Source: a virus. From it: 30,716 nucleotides of DNA. Made by a program: the position numbers and the translations under genes. Of the stretch, positions 1 through 30,716 are shown in pieces. The stretch is from IMG/VR virus record IMGVR_UViG_3300022833_000034, positions 1 through 30,716 of that record. One strand, written 5' to 3'. Under the pieces are notes generated by a model, which saw only the letters and a program-made list of their open reading frames with translations, ran no database searches and was not told where the DNA came from. Every line of letters starts with the position of its first letter. The stretch's first letter is position 1.

Positions 1-581
1 AAAAGTGGCAAAATTGCGACACACCCTCCGACACACCAAGCGACACACCTAAAGCCACGAATATAAAGGCTTTAAGCACTATACGCGACACACCCTCCGA
101 CACACCAAGCGACACACCTAAAGCCACGAATATAAAGGCTTTAAGCACTATACGCGACACACCCTCCGACACACCCTCCGACACACAAAGAAACAACAAT
201 GTTTTAAACAAGTTAAAAGACAATGCTTGTTTTGACAACAAGCCGGTGCTTGAAACCTTCCTACAAGAAAGAACAGATGCGTTTGAAGATTTCTGGAAAA
301 CATACAGCGAAAGTAAAGTTTTAATTGGTGGTAAAAACAAAGCACCAAAGGCAAAAACCAAATCAAAATTTTTGAATGAAACCTTCCCAGCTTCAAAAAT
401 CAGAAGCATGGGGTTAGAGGCATTTGATCAAGAGGTCGAGTCATTACTGGATCTGGTTTGGTTGGTTTACTCAGACATTGCTCAACATAAAAAAACAAAT
501 ACCCGTTCAGATTGGTTTAACCACGAAAACATGTGGCCTGCAAAGTTCTTGTCCAACGCACAGTGGAGGGATGAAGCATGA
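1..581 (+). CDS. Replication initiator (lambda O-like), 3' part continuing from the window end
   Basis: This is the C-terminal portion of a gene whose start lies at 30219. Because 1-119 equals 30598-30716, the frame opened at 30219 passes through base 3 without a stop to TGA at 579-581. The joined protein is 319 aa. This part encodes the linker (about residues 131-180), built from two copies of a 23-residue repeat rich in Asp-Thr-Pro-Ser units, then a C-terminal domain containing FEDFWKTY and ending in QWRDEA. In lambda-like phages the initiator binds iterons within its own gene and recruits the helicase; the 69-bp DNA repeat encoding the linker fits that. The stop overlaps the ATG of the DnaB-like helicase by 4 bp, so the two are translationally coupled. 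Initiator function is inferred from architecture and position; no individual family is recognised with certainty. Confidence 0.8.
   Translation, partial: KWQNCDTPSDTPSDTPKATNIKALSTIRDTPSDTPSDTPKATNIKALSTIRDTPSDTPSDTQRNNNVLNKLKDNACFDNKPVLETFLQERTDAFEDFWKTYSESKVLIGGKNKAPKAKTKSKFLNETFPASKIRSMGLEAFDQEVESLLDLVWLVYSDIAQHKKTNTRSDWFNHENMWPAKFLSNAQWRDEA
16..187. repeat. Iteron array, probable origin of replication
   Basis: The 9-bp motif CGACACACC starts at 17, 29, 41, then 86, 98, 110, then 155, 167 and 179 (the last has one mismatch). The copies form triplets with 12-bp spacing inside a 69-bp direct repeat (16-84, 85-153, partial from 154). The spacers carry the inverted repeat TAAAGCC/GGCTTTA (50-56/68-74 and 119-125/137-143) around an AT-rich loop. 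Both periods are multiples of three, so the array stays in the coding frame. An AT-rich stretch follows at about 187-245. Iterons plus an AT-rich tract inside the initiator gene match the lambda ori arrangement. The same array is seen again at 30613-30716 because of the terminal redundancy. The copy number of the 69-bp unit could be altered by assembly. Confidence 0.75.
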
Positions 582-1999
582 GCCAACTCAATGTCCCACC
601 TCAAAGCATGGAAGCAGAGCAAGCGGTACTTGGATCAATCTTAATACTTGCAAAAGCGGATCGACTAGTCGGTGAAATATTCGATTTGATTAGCACTGAC
701 ATGTTTTACAACCAATCCCATCAAATAATATTCAACGCAATGAACCGCATTGGCGCTAAAAACGAGATTGACGTTGTTACGTTGGATGAAGAACTTGGTA
801 ACACTGAGCAGTCAGAGCTAGCAGGAGGGTTTGCATACTTTGGAGATTTAGCCAGGAACACACCATCTTCTAAAAATGTACTCAAATACGCTGAAATTAT
901 CATTGAGCGATACGAAAAACGCAAAGTGCTAGAAATTTTGCACAACTCAATAGATCAGGTTTACAACAAAACTGAAACGTCAGAAACACTTTCGTATATT
1001 GAGCGAAACCTATCAGGAATTAACCTGGGCGGTAACTACGAACCTACGCACATAAACTCTAAAATTCCAGAGTGGTTAGACGTAATGCAAAAACGCGCTG
1101 AGAACGATCAAGGCGCTATTGGACTAAAGACTGGGGTAGATGGAATAGACAAGCAAATTATCGGCATACAGCCTAACTGGTTGATTATTTTGGCGGGTCG
1201 CCCATCAATGGGTAAGACGCTTGTGGCTCAAATGATTCACTCACACATATCAAAGACTTTACCGACCATGTTTTTTAGCATGGAAATGAGCAGCAACGAG
1301 ATAATGGATCGTTACGTTGGAATACTCGCAGGCATCGAAGTCAACAACTTAAAAATGGGCGCTTTGTCGGATTTGGAATGGGAGAGAACGAATAACATAA
1401 TTTATTCTATGAACAAAGACAGATTCAAAATTTACTACGATGAAACGCCAGCCTTAGCACTCAAACAAATATGCCATCGAGTCAAATCTACTATTAAAAA
1501 AGTAGGGCAAATTGGCCTAGTCACCATCGATTACATCGGATTAATGGAGAAAGAGCGTTCAGAACGTGATGATTTAGCGATTGGTAAAATCACCCGCGGA
1601 TTGAAGCAGTTAGCCAAAGAAACCAACACGCCAATATTGCTGCTAGTTCAAGCTAACCGAGGTACTGACATTGTGGCTAGGCCAACTATGTCAAACCTAG
1701 CAGGTTCCAGTGCTATTGAGTCAGACGCGGATCTGGTTTTATTCAGTCATAGGGATGAAGTTGCAAATCCTGAAACAGCGTTCAAAGGAATTATTGAGTT
1801 AATACCCGCTAAGTTTCGCCACGGTACATGCAACAAAACCGCATACATAGGAAAACGCTCAGACAAAATGGGCGGTACTTTCTACAGCTTAACTGATGCT
1901 GAGGCCGGTGAGCTGGACAATCAGAATAAGACGCGACAATTGCCACCACCGCGACCCCAAAGAGCTGAAAGATTTTCAAAAAAGGAGGCCAAGGCATGA
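578..1999 (+). CDS. Replicative DNA helicase, DnaB family
   Basis: 473 aa, close to the usual DnaB length. An N-terminal DnaB domain begins with a run typical of the family (PPQSMEAEQAVLGSIL, residues 7-22). The RecA-like C-terminal motor has Walker A GRPSMGKT at about 207-214, and an SMEMS motif and a Walker B-like VTIDYIGLM follow. It would unwind DNA at the fork as a hexamer loaded by the upstream initiator. The phage thus carries its own helicase (as P22 does with gene 12) instead of a lambda P-type loader. The start codon overlaps the initiator stop (ATGA), and the stop overlaps the next small gene. The C-terminus ends in a basic Pro/Arg/Lys-rich tail. Confidence 0.95.
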   Translation: MSQLNVPPQSMEAEQAVLGSILILAKADRLVGEIFDLISTDMFYNQSHQIIFNAMNRIGAKNEIDVVTLDEELGNTEQSELAGGFAYFGDLARNTPSSKNVLKYAEIIIERYEKRKVLEILHNSIDQVYNKTETSETLSYIERNLSGINLGGNYEPTHINSKIPEWLDVMQKRAENDQGAIGLKTGVDGIDKQIIGIQPNWLIILAGRPSMGKTLVAQMIHSHISKTLPTMFFSMEMSSNEIMDRYVGILAGIEVNNLKMGALSDLEWERTNNIIYSMNKDRFKIYYDETPALALKQICHRVKSTIKKVGQIGLVTIDYIGLMEKERSERDDLAIGKITRGLKQLAKETNTPILLLVQANRGTDIVARPTMSNLAGSSAIESDADLVLFSHRDEVANPETAFKGIIELIPAKFRHGTCNKTAYIGKRSDKMGGTFYSLTDAEAGELDNQNKTRQLPPPRPQRAERFSKKEAKA

Positions 2000-8078: not shown

Positions 8079-9356
8079 ATGTGGCCGTTTAGTCAGAAAA
8101 TCACAAATAATGCGCCCAGTGCTAACACCGAAGTAAAGTTTGCACTAAAATCAATCACATTGCCCGAAGCGCAGCCCAGTTGGAATCTTTTTCCACAAAA
8201 ACAGAGAGAATGGTCCACAGCAGTTGCTATTGACGAGGGTTACAACGCCTCAGCGATTGTTTACGCAGCAGTAGAGAAAAGAGCCAAGTTGATCGCTAGT
8301 GTGCCGTGGTATGCAGCAACAAAGGACGTGAACGGTAAAATTGAAAGATTGCCAGCCACTCACGCGCTGAACCAATTGATATACAGCCCTAATCTCGACC
8401 AATCATGGTACGAGGTAATGTATTCAGCTAGTCAAATGTTAGACCTCAGCGGATCTGCTTTCATGCCGGAAGTGAAAGGCGGCGCAAAGGCGTATCCAAT
8501 AGGTATTTCTGTTTTAAACTCTGAATACATAAAGATTAAACCAGGAAAAGAGCAGCTAGTTGATTTATATCAATACGTCAACGGCAATGTTACGCGCAAT
8601 ATATCACCCGATGATATGGTTCAGATAAAGCTTCCTAACCCCAAAAACCCTTACTTCGGTATGCCAGTACTAATGGCAGCAGGAAGGGCCACAGACATAG
8701 ATAGAGAAGCCGGGGATTGGCAAAAATCTAGCCTGCAAAATAGAAACATATCAGACATACACATTGAAGTACCAGAGGGTACTCAGCCGGACCAAATAGA
8801 ACAGATACAATCAAAACTACGCGAGCGCAATCAATCACCAGACAATGCAAGAGCGCCGTTGATATCTAGCGGTAAAGTTAACCAGTTATCAAGAACAGCC
8901 GTTGAAATGGACTTTACCAACTCACGCCGTTCAGTATGGACAGAAATAGCCGCATGTTTTGGCGTACCACTAGCAGCAATGGGATTTACTGAGAACGTCA
9001 ACCTAGCTAACGCTGACGCGATGATGAAACAGCTATGGCAAGACACCATCGTTCCACAGCTAGAGCTATTTAAACGACAATTAGACCATCAACTCGCTAA
9101 AGAGTTTGGTGATAACGTTTGTATTGAGTATGACCTGTCTAATGTAACAGCGTTGCAAGAATCACTGGATAGCAAACTGGCTAATGCAGAAAAGATGGAC
9201 AGGTTAGGGTTTAGTTTGGCGCAGATTAACCAACGCTTAGAGTTAGGTTTTAATGATAGCGAAATACCTGCTGACATAACTGATTTAGGCGAGAACCTAA
9301 ACGACGATGAAATTAAAATGATTTTAAAGTCTGCAAGCTATGGCAATGCTAAATAA
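8079..9356 (+). CDS. Portal protein, HK97 family
   Basis: 425 aa. NASAIVYAAVEKRAKLIASVPWYA (about residues 55-78) and the stretch around NPYFGMPVLMAAGRATDID, then GVPLAAMGF and NADAMMKQLWQDTIVPQLE are characteristic of HK97-type portals. It forms the dodecameric ring at the packaging vertex. The ATG is preceded by GAGGG at 8 bases. It follows terL after 45 bases and shares the TAATG junction with the next small gene. Confidence 0.93.
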   Translation: MWPFSQKITNNAPSANTEVKFALKSITLPEAQPSWNLFPQKQREWSTAVAIDEGYNASAIVYAAVEKRAKLIASVPWYAATKDVNGKIERLPATHALNQLIYSPNLDQSWYEVMYSASQMLDLSGSAFMPEVKGGAKAYPIGISVLNSEYIKIKPGKEQLVDLYQYVNGNVTRNISPDDMVQIKLPNPKNPYFGMPVLMAAGRATDIDREAGDWQKSSLQNRNISDIHIEVPEGTQPDQIEQIQSKLRERNQSPDNARAPLISSGKVNQLSRTAVEMDFTNSRRSVWTEIAACFGVPLAAMGFTENVNLANADAMMKQLWQDTIVPQLELFKRQLDHQLAKEFGDNVCIEYDLSNVTALQESLDSKLANAEKMDRLGFSLAQINQRLELGFNDSEIPADITDLGENLNDDEIKMILKSASYGNAK

Positions 9357-9628
9357 TGAAAAATAGAAAAGGCACTTTTAAAATAACTAAAGCTTTAATT
9401 GATAATAACCCTGACGGAGTTATAAAAACACTGGCAAACGTTTTAGTTTTGCGATGCGAGTATATAGCTATATATGACCATTTTGAGTATCACGGTATTA
9501 GTAAATTATTCGATGAGACTGAGGAAGGGCAGGTTATTCCAGAGTACGGTTTTATTATTAGTTTTGATGGAAAAGTCACTTGTTTTACTAGTGAAAATTC
9601 AGGGGCCGAATTAAATTGGCTAGACTAA
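9356..9628 (+). CDS. Small protein of unknown function between portal and MuF genes
   Basis: 90 aa, started by TAATG coupling to the portal stop. The first 35 residues are basic and helical; the remainder is strand-rich (LRCEYIAIYDHFEYHG, GFIISFDGKVTCFT). Codons are more AT-rich than those of the flanking structural genes, so it may be a late insertion into the head module. It overlaps the TTG start of the MuF-like gene by 13 bases. No family is recognised. Confidence 0.6.
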   Translation: MKNRKGTFKITKALIDNNPDGVIKTLANVLVLRCEYIAIYDHFEYHGISKLFDETEEGQVIPEYGFIISFDGKVTCFTSENSGAELNWLD

Positions 9629-26893: not shown

Positions 26894-27118
26894 TTAAGCT
26901 GCTTCTGAAACACACAACATGCTGTAAATTAAATCTAGCGTTGCTTGGTCAGGTATTAGCTGAATGATTTGCTCCGCTGTTAGCTGCTCGAAAACATGGT
27001 GCAAGTTGACACCCTCCAGCTTTGCTGAAACTTTCCCGCTATTGACTGTCAAACCTTCAATACTGCGGCACTCAATAGCAAAATCGCTATAAGTACCTTC
27101 TGTGTTTCTAATTGCCAT
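26894..27118 (-). CDS. 74-aa protein of unknown function
   Basis: Starts with an ATG coupled to the upstream stop (one-base overlap at 27118). It has a strand-rich first half (AIECRSIEGLTVNSGKVSAKL) and an acidic helical second half (VFEQLTAEQIIQLIPDQATL). No signal or membrane segment. Between the antirepressor and recT, in the place where lambda carries gam, kil and cIII, so a host-interaction role is possible but there is no sequence support for a specific one. Confidence 0.6.
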   Translation of the reverse strand: MAIRNTEGTYSDFAIECRSIEGLTVNSGKVSAKLEGVNLHHVFEQLTAEQIIQLIPDQATLDLIYSMLCVSEAA

Positions 27119-27507
27119 TATTGACTCCCTACATTCGCTGCTTCTTCCGTTGCCCAGGTATTTGCTAACGCCTCAATTGCCAACGTTCTGACTGCTCGAC
27201 GAAGTGGTATAACTTCAAACTCATTCTTAGTAGTCATTAGCTGATAGTGCATAGCCTCGATATTTTTGCCATCAAACGTTGCGTCAACAATATCCTGCTG
27301 ATCTAAACAGTTGACCCTACTAGTTGGGTAAACAAGCTGGTAAAACCCGCCAGTGGTGAGAGCGTTGGTTATTTCAGAGCGAAAAAACTCGAAGTTTTCC
27401 AGATCACTGTTTTCCGGCTCAGTTGTACTGACTAACTCAACGCTAGTGCCAAAAATAGCGCTAAAACTTGAGTTTAGAATTTGATTTGATTTGATTGCTG
27501 CGTTCAT
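27118..27507 (-). CDS. 129-aa protein of unknown function
   Basis: The frame ends one base into the next gene and starts 3 bases after the antirepressor stop. The product is acidic in the middle (TTEPENSDLENFEFF), with YQLVYPTSRVNCLDQQDIVDATF and a C-terminal helix VIPLRRAVRTLAIEALA. No catalytic or metal-binding motif is visible. It shares the leftward operon with the recombination genes. Confidence 0.6.
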   Translation of the reverse strand: MNAAIKSNQILNSSFSAIFGTSVELVSTTEPENSDLENFEFFRSEITNALTTGGFYQLVYPTSRVNCLDQQDIVDATFDGKNIEAMHYQLMTTKNEFEVIPLRRAVRTLAIEALANTWATEEAANVGSQ

Positions 27508-27509
27508 AA

Positions 27510-28277
27510 TTAAGCTACCTTGCTGAAAAATTTGTTTTGAAAGTACATCTGGCCCTTTGCTGTAATAAGCGTTTTAAACCAAAGTTGAATTTCACCGTTC
27601 TGATCTTTGCGAGTTTTCTCTTGAAGTTTAAATAAACCTTGATCAACGTACTTCTGGTAAGGTCTATTTCTTTGACTAAAACTATCCATCACATAACTTC
27701 CTTCACGAAGCATGGCGAAAAGCTTGTTTTGTCCTGTGCCAACTGATTTGGCAAAGTCTCTGATACAAACGCTATTGATTGAATCGTTAACCGCTTCGGC
27801 AAACGCTATTTTGGGTTGTGCGGCTTCAAGCTTTTCTGCCAAGTCAGCAGCTAAACGTAATGACTCAGCAAAACTCTTAGGCATATTCTGTTGTGATTGG
27901 TAGGTGCCAGTCTTACGAATAGAAGGAAGGACTTCACCAACCACCCAATCTTCAAACTTTTCAGCCTCTGGCATTTTCGAACGCATGATTAAACGGTAAA
28001 CGTCACGTTCTGGAATTATTTGATATTGAGTTACGGATTGATTGTGAGAATAACCAGCTGCTCTACATGCCTTGTAATCACTGGATACTAGCAATTCGCT
28101 ACCACCTATAAGTTTAACGTTCTTACAATGGTCTTGAATCGCTTCTGACGTATTTGCATAACCAAGTAGATCAGCAACATCCTTTGCAATAAACATTGGC
28201 TCACCGTTTTGATCAATTACTCGGACTTCACTTGATTTGAATTTGAAAGGAATTACGTTGCTGGTTGGTGTACTCAT
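27510..28277 (-). CDS. Antirepressor, Bro-N plus KilAC domains
   Basis: 255 aa. Residues about 14-115 form a Bro-N domain: SEVRVIDQNGEPMFIAKDVA, DLLGYANTSEAIQDHC, YQIIPERDVYRLIMRSKMPE, EDWVVGEVLPSIRKTG. Residues about 155-250 are a KilAC domain: CIRDFAKSVGTGQNKLFAML, QRNRPYQKYVDQGLF, TLITAKGQMYF. Phage antirepressors of this build bind and inactivate the CI-type repressor. It is the first gene of the leftward operon, and its promoter carries two copies of the predicted CI operator, so it is itself under repressor control: a switch in which loss of repression produces more antirepressor. Confidence 0.88.
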   Translation of the reverse strand: MSTPTSNVIPFKFKSSEVRVIDQNGEPMFIAKDVADLLGYANTSEAIQDHCKNVKLIGGSELLVSSDYKACRAAGYSHNQSVTQYQIIPERDVYRLIMRSKMPEAEKFEDWVVGEVLPSIRKTGTYQSQQNMPKSFAESLRLAADLAEKLEAAQPKIAFAEAVNDSINSVCIRDFAKSVGTGQNKLFAMLREGSYVMDSFSQRNRPYQKYVDQGLFKLQEKTRKDQNGEIQLWFKTLITAKGQMYFQNKFFSKVA

Positions 28278-28308
28278 GTTGATGCCTTAATTAAGTAACT
28301 TGCCAATC

Positions 28309-28346
28309 AGTGTACAAGATATTCTTGTTATGGCAAGTAAAACTTG
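28309..28346 (-). promoter_or_regulatory. Leftward promoter pL with two repressor operators (OL-like)
   Basis: Read on the minus strand: -35 TTGCCA (28336-28331), 16-bp spacer, -10 TACACT (28314-28309), with start near 28302 and the antirepressor ATG at 28277. Two CAAG-N5-CTTG operators lie over it: 28315-28327 (CAAGATATTCTTG, filling the spacer) and 28334-28346 (CAAGTAAAACTTG, overlapping the -35). The same motif occurs three times at OR. Binding at either site would block polymerase. Confidence 0.75.
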
Positions 28347-28364
28347 TTGTTTTTATCTTAGGCA

Positions 28365-28389
28365 TAAAAAAACCCGCTATTAACGGGTT
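28365..28389 (-). terminator. Terminator of the repressor transcript
   Basis: On the minus strand AACCCG (28389-28384) pairs with CGGGTT (28376-28371) around a 7-base loop and is followed by a run of six T. It lies 67 bases after the repressor stop and just before the leftward promoter, so it insulates the repressor transcript from the antirepressor operon. Confidence 0.8.
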
Positions 28390-28455
28390 AATTATTATTA
28401 AGTTAAGTTATCGCCAAACACTAGACGAATAAAAAACCTTTCCTATTATATTGAC

Positions 28456-29064
28456 TCACTCTGCATCTACCATAATGTCTGGATGCTCCAAAGCGTTAAA
28501 GCTATTCAGCCTCAACCTGCTTGCGCCAGGCTTATACAGACGCATTACTTTTAACAAACCTTCATAAAGAACTGCGTACACTCCTCCATCAACTGCTGAG
28601 ATTTCTTTTGTATCTATCACAACCATGTCGCCATCAAAAAGCCTTGGCTCCATGCTGTTTCCTGATATAAATACACATAAGGAATAACTTTCATCTACCC
28701 CACACCCGTCAAAAAGAGACTTTGGAAGCTTGATAACTTTCCCTTTTCTTAAACTTAAATCTCCATCCGTGACTACGACACTCATAAGAACTGACACCTC
28801 TACTTCTTCATTATCTTCGAGTAATCCAACAGGACTTACATTTGTGTTAACACATCCATCGCCACCCGCTATAAGCGTTAATTCGTTGATTTTTAAAGCG
28901 CGACACAGGGCGCTTCTATTTTTACCTAACACGTCATTTCTGCCGCGCTCCAAGTTTTGTACAGCGGTAACACTGACTTTTACAACCTCTGCTAATTTGT
29001 TTTGTGAATAACCAATACCTTTTCTGTAGTGCTTAATTCTCAAACCCTGATCTATTAGCCGCAC
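28456..29064 (-). CDS. CI-like repressor, XRE HTH plus S24 peptidase domain
   Basis: 202 aa from a GTG at 29064 with GGAG 8 bases upstream. The N-terminal HTH spans about residues 8-65 (YSQNKLAEVVKVSVTAVQNL). The C-terminal half is an S24/LexA-like domain with catalytic Ser137 in ISGNSMEPRLFDGDMVVID and Lys172 in GLLKVMR, 35 residues apart as in LexA. The Ala-Gly or Cys-Gly cleavage dipeptide expected about 35-40 residues before Ser137 is not seen; that region reads SVVVTDGDLS. It should bind CAAG-N5-CTTG at OL and OR, holding the lysogenic state and preventing expression of cro and the antirepressor. Confidence 0.9.
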   Translation of the reverse strand: MRLIDQGLRIKHYRKGIGYSQNKLAEVVKVSVTAVQNLERGRNDVLGKNRSALCRALKINELTLIAGGDGCVNTNVSPVGLLEDNEEVEVSVLMSVVVTDGDLSLRKGKVIKLPKSLFDGCGVDESYSLCVFISGNSMEPRLFDGDMVVIDTKEISAVDGGVYAVLYEGLLKVMRLYKPGASRLRLNSFNALEHPDIMVDAE

Positions 29065-29102
29065 GTTGCGATCTCCAAGTAATTACAATCCAACCTAAAG
29101 TA

Positions 29103-29172
29103 CAAGCATTGCTTGCTTAACAAAAGACTAGAATAACTTGCTATTTGTGTATTTATGGGCAAGAATAACTTG
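29103..29172. promoter_or_regulatory. OR operator region with three CAAG-N5-CTTG sites
   Basis: Operators: 29103-29115 (CAAGCATTGCTTG, perfect dyad), 29128-29140 (CTAGAATAACTTG, one arm mismatch) and 29160-29172 (CAAGAATAACTTG). They occupy the space between the divergent cI and cro starts, as OR3, OR2 and OR1 do in lambda. The centres are about 25 and 32 bp apart. The pR and pRM promoters must lie here but no pair of hexamers is convincing enough to name; TAGAAT (29129-29134) and AAGAAT (29161-29166) are -10-like. The spacing of the right pair is wider than in lambda. Confidence 0.75.
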
Positions 29173-29192
29173 TATAGAATTAAGGGGTGGTT

Positions 29193-29420
29193 ATGAAGGG
29201 CATAGAGAAGGCCGTAAAAAATGCAGGTGGCGCGGGAAACCTCGCTGAACAATTGGGTGTTTCTTATGAGGCTGTCAGGCTTTGGCGGAAACTTGGATTT
29301 GTACCTCAGAAAAGTGTTTTTGATGTTGAAGATAAAACTGGCGTGTCTTGTTTTGAGCTTAATCCAACAGTTTACCCTGTCAACAGGTTCATTGATGTGA
29401 GCCTCAAACAAGCCAGTTAG
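29193..29420 (+). CDS. Cro-like HTH protein
   Basis: 75 aa from the ATG at 29193, preceded by AAGGGG at 5 bases; an in-frame GTG at 29187 is less likely because it lies on the ribosome binding site. Residues 10-35 (GGAGNLAEQLGVSYEAVRLW) are a helix-turn-helix of the YdaS/Cro type, followed by the conserved-looking GFVPQKSVFDVEDKTGVSCF and ELNPTVYP. As first gene of the rightward operon it probably binds the same operators as the repressor and shuts off cI expression during lytic growth. Confidence 0.85.
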   Translation: MKGIEKAVKNAGGAGNLAEQLGVSYEAVRLWRKLGFVPQKSVFDVEDKTGVSCFELNPTVYPVNRFIDVSLKQAS

Positions 29421-29442
29421 CAATTTAAACAGAGAGTTTATT

Positions 29443-29622
29443 ATGTATAACAATCGAAACTACGTTAGAGAAAACGCCATAAAAGTGAGATTTAGCAATG
29501 AAGAACTAGAAGCGATTAGTGCCCTAGCAAGTTTGTCACGTAAACAGAAAGCTGCGTTCATTTATGATGCCGTTATGCGTCAGATTGCGATTGAAATTAA
29601 TTATAAACAACGTGGGGTGTAA
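29443..29622 (+). CDS. Ribbon-helix-helix (Arc-like) small protein
   Basis: 59 aa: a short strand NAIKVRFSNEE, helix LEAISALASLS, turn, and helix QKAAFIYDAVMRQIAIEI, the order of the Arc/MetJ ribbon-helix-helix fold that binds DNA as a dimer. AGAGAG lies about 8 bases before the ATG. It directly precedes another probable RHH protein (the next ATG follows the stop with no gap). It occupies the place of cII in lambda, so a regulatory role in the lysis-lysogeny decision is possible. Confidence 0.7.
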   Translation: MYNNRNYVRENAIKVRFSNEELEAISALASLSRKQKAAFIYDAVMRQIAIEINYKQRGV

Positions 29623-29832
29623 ATGAAGGGTCTGGAAAGTGTCATGTTTTCTGATATGCAAATCAAAGAATTAACAGAAGCGGCTAATCATCGAGGCGTA
29701 ACCGTCAGTGAGTTAGTCGAGTCTAAAACCAGAGAGTTTTTAAACCAGGTCAGTGGCAGAAAAGAGCTGAAAAAGTCCGTAATTTTAACTTTTAGGCCCC
29801 TCAAAAGCACCCATTATATTGGTGTTAGATGA
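29623..29832 (+). CDS. Second small ribbon-helix-helix-like protein
   Basis: 69 aa, starting directly after the stop of the previous gene with GGGG upstream. SVMFSDMQIKELTEAANHRG and VTVSELVESKTREFLNQV give strand-helix-turn-helix, again RHH-like; the C-terminal tail (KKSVILTFRPLKS) is basic. It may be a partner or paralogue of its neighbour. Function unknown. Confidence 0.55.
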   Translation: MKGLESVMFSDMQIKELTEAANHRGVTVSELVESKTREFLNQVSGRKELKKSVILTFRPLKSTHYIGVR

Positions 29833-29846
29833 TCATGTGCCAATAG

Positions 29847-29893
29847 TGATGTTATCAATCACATCAGTTTGAAGGCCGATTAAGTTCGGTTTT
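29847..29893 (+). promoter_or_regulatory. Inverted repeat and weak hairpin after the RHH genes
   Basis: TGATGT (29847-29852) and ACATCA (29861-29866) form a dyad 8 bases apart, which could be a regulator site. Next, AAGGCCGA (29872-29879) can pair with TCGGTTTT (29886-29893), with two G-T pairs and a short loop, ending in four T: a weak terminator of the tR1 type. It would attenuate transcription into the replication genes. Confidence 0.4.
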
Positions 29894-29968
29894 CAGGTGC
29901 TCCACACGCGACTCTATGTAGATGCGTTAAACGTTCGAGATAACAGGGACTCGGCGAATTCAATTCAA

Positions 29969-30085
29969 TAAAAAACCCCGGTCAATGCGCTAGAACTACG
30001 GGGTTAATTACCAACGGATTAAGTATGAGCAAATTAGAAAGAAAAATCAACATTCAAATTATTAATAAAGGTGTTCAGCTATCAA
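29969..30085 (-). ncRNA. Predicted OOP-like antisense RNA
   Basis: On the minus strand there is a good sigma-70 promoter: -35 TTGATA (30085-30080), 16-bp spacer, -10 AATAAT (30063-30058), start near 30051. The transcript would end at an intrinsic terminator, AACCCCG (30005-29999) pairing with CGGGGTT (29980-29974) and a T-run to 29969, giving about 80 nt. Lambda OOP RNA is 77 nt, leftward, and lies beside the O gene. This RNA would cover the ribosome binding site and start of the 64-aa gene at 30025. Span given includes the promoter; the RNA itself is about 29969-30051. Confidence 0.55.
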
Positions 30086-30219
30086 CAGCAAACGGCTGCA
30101 ACACAACGTCTATGACACGTAAAGAGCTGCAAGTGTTAATAAGTGACGCTTTGATCGCTGAACGTGTCCTGGGCGATGCTGAGAGAGCTAGAAAAACAGT
30201 GTTACGGGCGGTGAGCTAA
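30025..30219 (+). CDS. 64-aa protein of unknown function upstream of the initiator
   Basis: Basic and helical: KLERKINIQIINKGVQLSTA, then MTRKELQVLISDALIAERVL and a basic end. It does not have the HTH of lambda CII. The stop overlaps the initiator ATG (TAATG), so initiator translation may be coupled to it. Its start and Shine-Dalgarno region are complementary to the predicted antisense RNA, so control of this gene would pass to replication. Confidence 0.65.
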   Translation: MSKLERKINIQIINKGVQLSTANGCNTTSMTRKELQVLISDALIAERVLGDAERARKTVLRAVS

Positions 30220-30716
30220 TGAAACTGGCTCTAGTGAACAAAAACAATCAGGTTAAGAGAGATATGCCAAGTGAGAATGGTTTCGTGATCCTTTGGAGAG
30301 ACATTAACAAGCAGTCTTGGTCTAATGAATCGTTGCCCTACGCAGTCTTCACCAAGCTTTTAACTCAAGTCCAGCATAAGCCTTACGTAGCAGAAGTAAA
30401 TGGTATTAAGACACCATTACAAGCTGGTGAAATAGCGATGTCATACGACAAGATAACTCAATTATTTAAAGAGATAAAAGACAAATCTCACGCTAGAAGA
30501 ATCATTAAAAAATTCAAATCTTTGTCGCAAATTTACACCAGAGAAATTAAAAAAGGCAACGTGAATTATGGGTTTGTAGTCGGTTTTGTAGGGTGGGAAA
30601 AGTGGCAAAATTGCGACACACCCTCCGACACACCAAGCGACACACCTAAAGCCACGAATATAAAGGCTTTAAGCACTATACGCGACACACCCTCCGACAC
30701 ACCAAGCGACACACCT
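30219..30716 (+). CDS. Replication initiator (lambda O-like), 5' part; continues at base 120 of the window
   Basis: ATG at 30219, overlapping the previous stop. The frame is open to the window end (166 codons), the last 119 bases duplicating 1-119. The joined protein (30219-30597 plus 1-581) is 319 aa. Residues 1-126 look like a winged-helix DNA-binding domain of the phage replication protein type: ENGFVILWRDINKQSWSNES, LQAGEIAMSYDKITQLFKEI, SHARRIIKKFKSLSQIY, then VNYGFVVGFVGWEKW. The iteron-coded linker follows directly. The initiator is followed by a DnaB-like helicase rather than a loader. Annotated in two parts only because the circle was cut inside the gene. Confidence 0.8.
   Translation, partial: MKLALVNKNNQVKRDMPSENGFVILWRDINKQSWSNESLPYAVFTKLLTQVQHKPYVAEVNGIKTPLQAGEIAMSYDKITQLFKEIKDKSHARRIIKKFKSLSQIYTREIKKGNVNYGFVVGFVGWEKWQNCDTPSDTPSDTPKATNIKALSTIRDTPSDTPSDTP
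30598..30716. repeat. Terminal redundancy, identical to 1-119
   Basis: The 119 bases are the same as the first 119 of the window, beginning with the unique sequence AAAAGTGGCAAAATTG before the iterons. A frame crosses the junction without interruption. This is most simply an assembly overlap of a circular or circularly permuted molecule; a true direct terminal repeat of that exact length inside a gene is less likely. Confidence 0.9.

Follow-up and report, generated by a model that had tools for sequence, protein, structure and literature searches.

What lambda pO and its short leftward RNA, OOP, do beyond cII has long been debated, with a primer, a replication brake and transcription interference as the proposed roles. 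The same question is raised by the window analysed here (the whole 30,716-nt stretch of viral DNA), in which a preliminary description had placed an OOP-like antisense RNA across the start of the replication operon. We asked whether this phage has such an element, where its RNA would start and end, and what it might regulate when cII is not nearby.

Organisation of the replication module

The ends of the record are redundant: window positions 30598-30716 repeat the first 119 bases (1-119), as in a circular or end-redundant molecule, and because of this repeat the initiator gene that starts at 30219 resumes at 120-581. To the right of an S24-type repressor gene lie, in order, a YdaS/Cro-like gene, two small genes and a non-coding stretch (29833-30024), which is followed by a 64-aa gene, a DnaD-like initiator gene and a helicase-like gene (Table 1). 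The 64-aa product matched neither Pfam nor PHROG, and homologues of its gene were found in two related loci, L004 (protein 91% identical) and L012. A 69-bp unit repeated inside the initiator gene encodes DTPSDTPSDTPKATNIKALSTIR; by comparison with lambda, these repeats are a candidate iteron array. Within the non-coding stretch, the block 29870-29958 opens with a rightward terminator-like hairpin whose closing pair shows a compensatory change relative to L004 (A-T to C-G). A gene is inserted in L004 between the counterpart of this block and the leftward hairpin described below.

Table 1. Position of the putative pO-oop-tO cassette and of neighbouring features in the window.
Feature	Coordinates	Strand	Remarks
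S24-type repressor gene	28456-29064	-	
Non-coding leader block	29870-29958	+	89 nt, 94% identical to L004:2451-2539
Predicted leftward terminator (tO-like)	29970-30005	-	stem 29974-29980 / 29999-30005, loop 29981-29998
Predicted OOP-like RNA	29970-30015	-	46 nt as drawn, about 48 with the U-tract end; 5' GUUGGUAAUUAACCCCG...
Weak Shine-Dalgarno (GGA) of the 64-aa gene	30016-30018	+	directly adjoins the predicted RNA start
Putative pO-like -10 box, CATACT	30022-30027	-	complementary to AGT and the ATG that starts the 64-aa gene
64-aa gene, first of the replication module	30025-30219	+	stop overlaps the initiator start
Putative pO-like -35 box, TTGATT	30045-30050	-	spacer 17
TTGATA-16-AATAAT promoter of the preliminary description	30058-30085	-	probably not the main promoter
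DnaD-like replication initiator gene, 5' part	30219-30716	+	phrog_2514, DnaD-like helicase loader, E 2.9e-10
Repeats within the initiator gene	16-186	+	69-bp unit, 2.5 copies; candidate iterons
Helicase-like gene	578-1999		named from its translation and the annotated equivalent in phage P24

A conserved leftward terminator shape

The putative terminator reads AAAAAACCCCG-(18 nt)-CGGGGTT, with a U6 end supplied by the A-tract 29970-29975; it is missing from the list of our promoter and terminator scan because its loop exceeds 8 nt. Its fold has no extra stability over shuffled sequences (z -0.19), and single-sequence folding was set aside as uninformative about the element. The terminator had been called strong. 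A terminator shape is present and conserved, but its strength finds no support in the fold: because that fold equals the shuffles and the predicted RNA reaches only -9.7 kcal/mol, the word must rest on conservation and not on the window alone.

The evidence for this shape comes from relatives, in which the stems vary and still pair (CCCCG/CGGGG; GCCCG/CGGGC in L012; GGCTCC/GGAGCC in L004; CCCCGC/GCGGGG or CCTCGC/GCGAGG in the larger of two groups of relatives). As the stems change, the loop stays nearly invariant inside each group (TTGCTTTC..CGGC; GCGCATTGA). Every aligned sequence has at least five A before the stem; most of the loci found by pattern scans were selected for this tract, but it is also present in the loci found through their initiators and in L075, which was found by a pattern without it. 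On shape and conservation, we conclude that the predicted leftward terminator is a real, conserved element, of the intrinsic kind that would end a short RNA.

Direct searches with the window sequence gave little. An exact search of viral contigs with the hairpin returned no match, and a loose pattern for the group-1 loop gave chance matches among the matches listed. When the 169-nt leader was compared by BLAST with 395 genomes (order of G001), only short matches were obtained, the best of which (L062) was rejected as an unrelated terminator. Rfam returned six chance-like matches in window 28000-30716, far under gathering scores and none of them at the cassette, and no relevant family at gathering or lax thresholds.

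A candidate promoter overlapping the first start codon of the replication module

When the minus strand was scanned to the right of the hairpin, the pattern TTGNNN-17-CATA(A/C)T recurred locus upon locus; in the window it is TTGATT-17-CATACT (30050-30022), overlapping the start codon of the 64-aa gene. With the -10 box fixed on the start codon, TTG was found at spacer 17 in all 26 loci with a terminator cassette, and the ATG was preceded by A(G/T)T in 26/26, against 4.9% of 410 control gene starts located elsewhere in the retrieved loci. The promoter score, on a matrix that represents E. coli promoters in general, was at least 7.4 over the 26 loci, while the controls averaged 0.7 and 2% of them reached 7.39 or more. 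These counts do not amount to 26 independent events, because the loci are related and were found via the hairpin or via related initiators, and a joint chance of 1e-14 overstates their independence, also because some types share first codons. Even so, chance would hardly produce as few as five independent types, each with a probability of 1-4.5%. One control is itself pO-like: the minus-strand start codon at 27507 (gene 27118-27507) carries TTGATT-18-CATAAT with a score of 8.9, one of the two highest among the 410, which may be chance.

The 26 cassettes all directly precede the first gene of a replication module, and these first genes are of several unrelated kinds: the 64-aa gene, a gene of 60 aa, O-like genes whose N-termini differ, and mini-ORFs shorter than 20 codons. 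The latter (16-18 codons, in L044:5185-5330 and in L045, where the cassette is on the minus strand at 9319-9384) bear the promoter -35 ahead of unrelated initiators, and the L044 mini-ORF seems, from its sequence, to be an internal deletion of the 60-aa gene in which the first and last codons were left. The window thus has the sequence of a leftward sigma-70 promoter whose -10 box lies over the start codon of the first replication-module gene.

The lambda OOP promoter is under LexA control. No LexA box (CTGT-N8-ACAG, at most one mismatch) was found near 29969-30085, and no DnaA box near the promoter. In lambda, a pO- mutation replaces A by T at the position 2 bp ahead of the O start codon (PMC3985674), and the equivalent base is A in 26/26 loci.

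The predicted RNA

Lambda OOP served as the model for the start of the RNA, which was placed at the base immediately to the left of the Shine-Dalgarno (mostly GAGG, AGGA or GGAG at this position in relatives). Transcription from the start-codon promoter would therefore run from 30015 to about 29968 and give 46-48 nt, not the roughly 80 nt first proposed. Pairing over the ribosome binding site, also proposed, is not what this RNA would do, as it adjoins the Shine-Dalgarno without covering it. The base at the predicted start is C on the plus strand in 26/26 loci; because our script sought a C there, this agreement is a consistency check and not an independent test.

In the larger group, which was gathered through initiator relatives and pattern scans, the predicted RNA is 53-55 nt long, and in 22/22 sequences a 4-bp 5' hairpin starts right at the predicted +1. 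This hairpin occurs with six stem sequences and 88/88 cells paired, whereas re-dealt arms match in 0.1% of trials; pairing was counted from the sequence ends because MAFFT misplaced the arms. As the predicted +1 and the end of the hairpin coincide, the leftward RNA appears to be the folded unit. The 5' hairpin is absent from the window and its three closest relatives. With the start inferred, the predicted lengths in the window and in the larger group compare with about 60-77 nt in the pO-oop-tO class.

Comparison with lambda, phi80, P22 and other phages

The O gene of the lambda record begins with ATGACAAATACAGCAAAAATACTCAAC, preceded by AGGAGTCATT; the resulting promoter is TTGAGT-17-CATAAT, and CAATAAAAAACGCCCGG lies upstream. 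The window has in common with lambda pO/OOP/tO a leftward promoter sequence with a 17-bp spacer and a -10 box that overlaps the first replication gene at its start codon, a leftward terminator after CAATAAAAAA, and a (predicted) RNA that starts with G just left of the Shine-Dalgarno (PMC3985674). The two differ in their RNAs, as lambda OOP is 77 nt long and overlaps the end of cII with its 3' part (PMC3349717) whereas the window RNA would be wholly non-coding with no cII, and in their initiators, lambda having O and the window a DnaD-like protein with the 64-aa gene in between. Phage phi80 has promoter hexamers identical to those of the window and a 60-nt annotated RNA, M3, which lies between cII and gene 15, off cII, and is an RNase P substrate (PMC11143913); unlike in the window, this RNA is flanked immediately by cII upstream and by an O-like gene downstream. 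P22 oop was detected by RNA-seq as a 63-nt leftward RNA (PMC13397905). In the P22-type phage BTP1, TGGTCA-17-CATAAT lies over a 48-codon ORF that precedes the initiator, like the 64-aa gene of the window, but in P22 the oop RNA runs antisense to the cII equivalent, c1.

More broadly, the geometry was found in 9 of 12 sampled lambdoid records when any gene start in the region was allowed (lambda, phi80, BTP1, KO-TP1, phiES15, SEN34, PhiR47_2, mEp043 and PAJU2), most of which also have a leftward terminator shape upstream; it was missing in the Mannheimia, Yersinia 21.09 and Halomonas phages. In a sample picked by the rep_O domain alone, the promoter was present in 6/29, all with a (S/A)NTAE-type N-terminus; not every rep_O gene has pO. 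The window shares its place, geometry, A-tract and start-codon overlap with the cassettes of Alteromonas phage P24 and related IMG/VR contigs. The larger group differs by another loop, the 5' hairpin at +1, a long non-coding leader upstream and varied downstream genes. The relatives with named hosts are phage P24 and a Thalassotalea genome. On this comparative evidence, an OOP-like antisense RNA at the replication operon, as proposed in the preliminary description, is retained as the kind of element, and its promoter, start site, length and overlap are revised.

Alternative readings of the promoter, the hairpin and the RNA

The promoter first assigned to the RNA, TTGATA-16-AATAAT, is indeed found on the minus strand at 30085-30058, and an RNA of about 80 nt made from it would cover the start codon and the Shine-Dalgarno and block translation directly. 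Its hexamers match at 10 of 12 positions, and its matrix score exceeds that of the start-codon promoter (9.65 against 8.74). Against this, the site is not above chance (7 promoter-like sites observed versus 8.0 in shuffles; p ~0.14 against synonymous-codon shuffles), and it is missing at the other loci, whose coding sequences differ. Furthermore L004 and L012, which keep its -35 box and most of the codons, have AAATAT and GTAAAC in place of the -10 box. Hexamers lost where the surrounding codons are kept had been named beforehand as the outcome that would speak against the promoter; this is what we find at 30058-30085 and not at the start codon. We therefore consider a direct block of translation from this site improbable. 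In view of the aligned sequences, 30058-30085 is probably the wrong promoter, the start-codon promoter being better supported.

The hairpin could also be only a border terminator that catches spurious leftward transcription, or else part of the rightward mRNA as a structured leader element, with the promoter match inherited and unused. Indeed, the cassette is common to the relatives by descent, and many of them have, upstream of it, a leader with rightward-strand structure of its own. We nevertheless judge this unlikely, as unrelated genes and shortened mini-ORFs repeatedly carry TTG at spacer 17, lambda has a proven promoter of this start-codon geometry (PMC3985674), the 5' hairpin begins exactly at the predicted +1, and an A-tract is required for leftward termination only. 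A rightward leader element alone had been considered for the hairpin and was dropped once the start-codon promoter emerged. Finally, the RNA might be made and act mainly in trans, on another phage message or a host message, via the conserved terminator loop. The near invariance of this loop per group despite stem changes would fit such a role, but kinship alone may preserve the loop and the two groups differ in it, and we give this possibility very little weight.

Proposed function without cII

In strict OOP elements, which lead to RNase III-dependent cutting of the cII-O message, the RNA lies over the end of a cII-type gene. No such overlap exists in the window, where the closest ORF on the upstream side stops at 29832, leaving 138 nt to the terminator, and has best matches other than cII. 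Because the RNA would sit wholly in a non-coding stretch, a cII-type coding target is excluded in the window phage, in agreement with the earlier suggestion that a cII message is not what it acts on. No cII-like gene lies under the RNA, and regulation of the replication operon is therefore the likeliest function.

Inferring transcription, start and function, we think it likely, though well short of certain, that the window has a pO-oop-tO cassette that restrains the replication operon, mainly by convergence and secondarily by antisense. RNA polymerase would initiate leftward transcription at a sigma-70 promoter, with a -10 box complementary to the start codon plus its three preceding bases and a -35 box over codons 7-9 of the 64-aa gene. 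The short RNA would begin beside the Shine-Dalgarno and stop at the hairpin 29970-30005, and its sequence would by construction be the complement of the leader in the rightward replication mRNA. As the main step, promoter convergence would hold back and tune rightward expression of the operon; antisense pairing beside the ribosome binding site would come second. In lambda, active pO lowers pR transcription past pO and loss of pO harms replication (PMC3985674), and the silencing of replication by plasmids needs oop transcription plus iterons (PMC3349717). Given this precedent and the same organisation in the window (pO heading the module, repeats in the initiator gene), a convergence-type restraint is favoured. 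The antisense step is weakened because lambda OOP is reported to leave O-P mRNA stability unaffected (PMC3985674). Other points that speak against the cassette reading as a whole are the modest fold of the window RNA and its missing 5' hairpin, the kinship of the 26 loci, the low share of the promoter in the rep_O-selected sample, and the lack of LexA and DnaA boxes near the promoter. The initial suggestion that the OOP-like RNA may limit replication is thus one with precedent in lambda (PMC3985674, PMC3349717).

Implications for the pO-oop-tO class

The pO-oop-tO class is already known; what is new here is its association with unrelated downstream genes and with a DnaD-like initiator, and its separation from cII. 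These arrangements suggest that an OOP-class RNA can serve replication control alone. In phages that have the promoter, the terminator and the predicted RNA alongside unrelated initiators, but no cII under the RNA, nature has already parted the two roles, and the one in replication can be tested directly. A tentative extension, which we rate somewhat more doubtful than credible, is that pO-oop-tO is a portable replication-control device at the left border of interchangeable modules, its restraint being general and the cII antisense function of lambda and P22 derived. If so, unrelated genes would carry the promoter overprinted on codons 1-9, and because of this overprinting of coding starts, the need for pO would shape N-termini and keep vestigial mini-ORFs.

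A long structured leader in relatives

A modular and apparently non-coding leader of about 500-900 nt, made of recurring blocks, lies directly upstream of the cassette in several relatives (L014:755-1406, L007:1715-2330 and L035:1-648, and also in L047, L049, L051, L052 and L057); it is absent from the window. No Rfam family fitted it. One of its helices, GGCGTTTTGA...TCAAAGCGTT, covaries in 20 variants, with swapped inner arms and with G-U pairs on the rightward strand, and its longest paired run averages 9.7, versus 5.8 when the arms are re-dealt. From these sequence patterns, the leader is possibly an undescribed large structured phage RNA. In L012, the non-coding leader upstream of the cassette contains a tRNA-like element at 191-285 (tRNA-Val call; Rfam tRNA, 34.7 bits).
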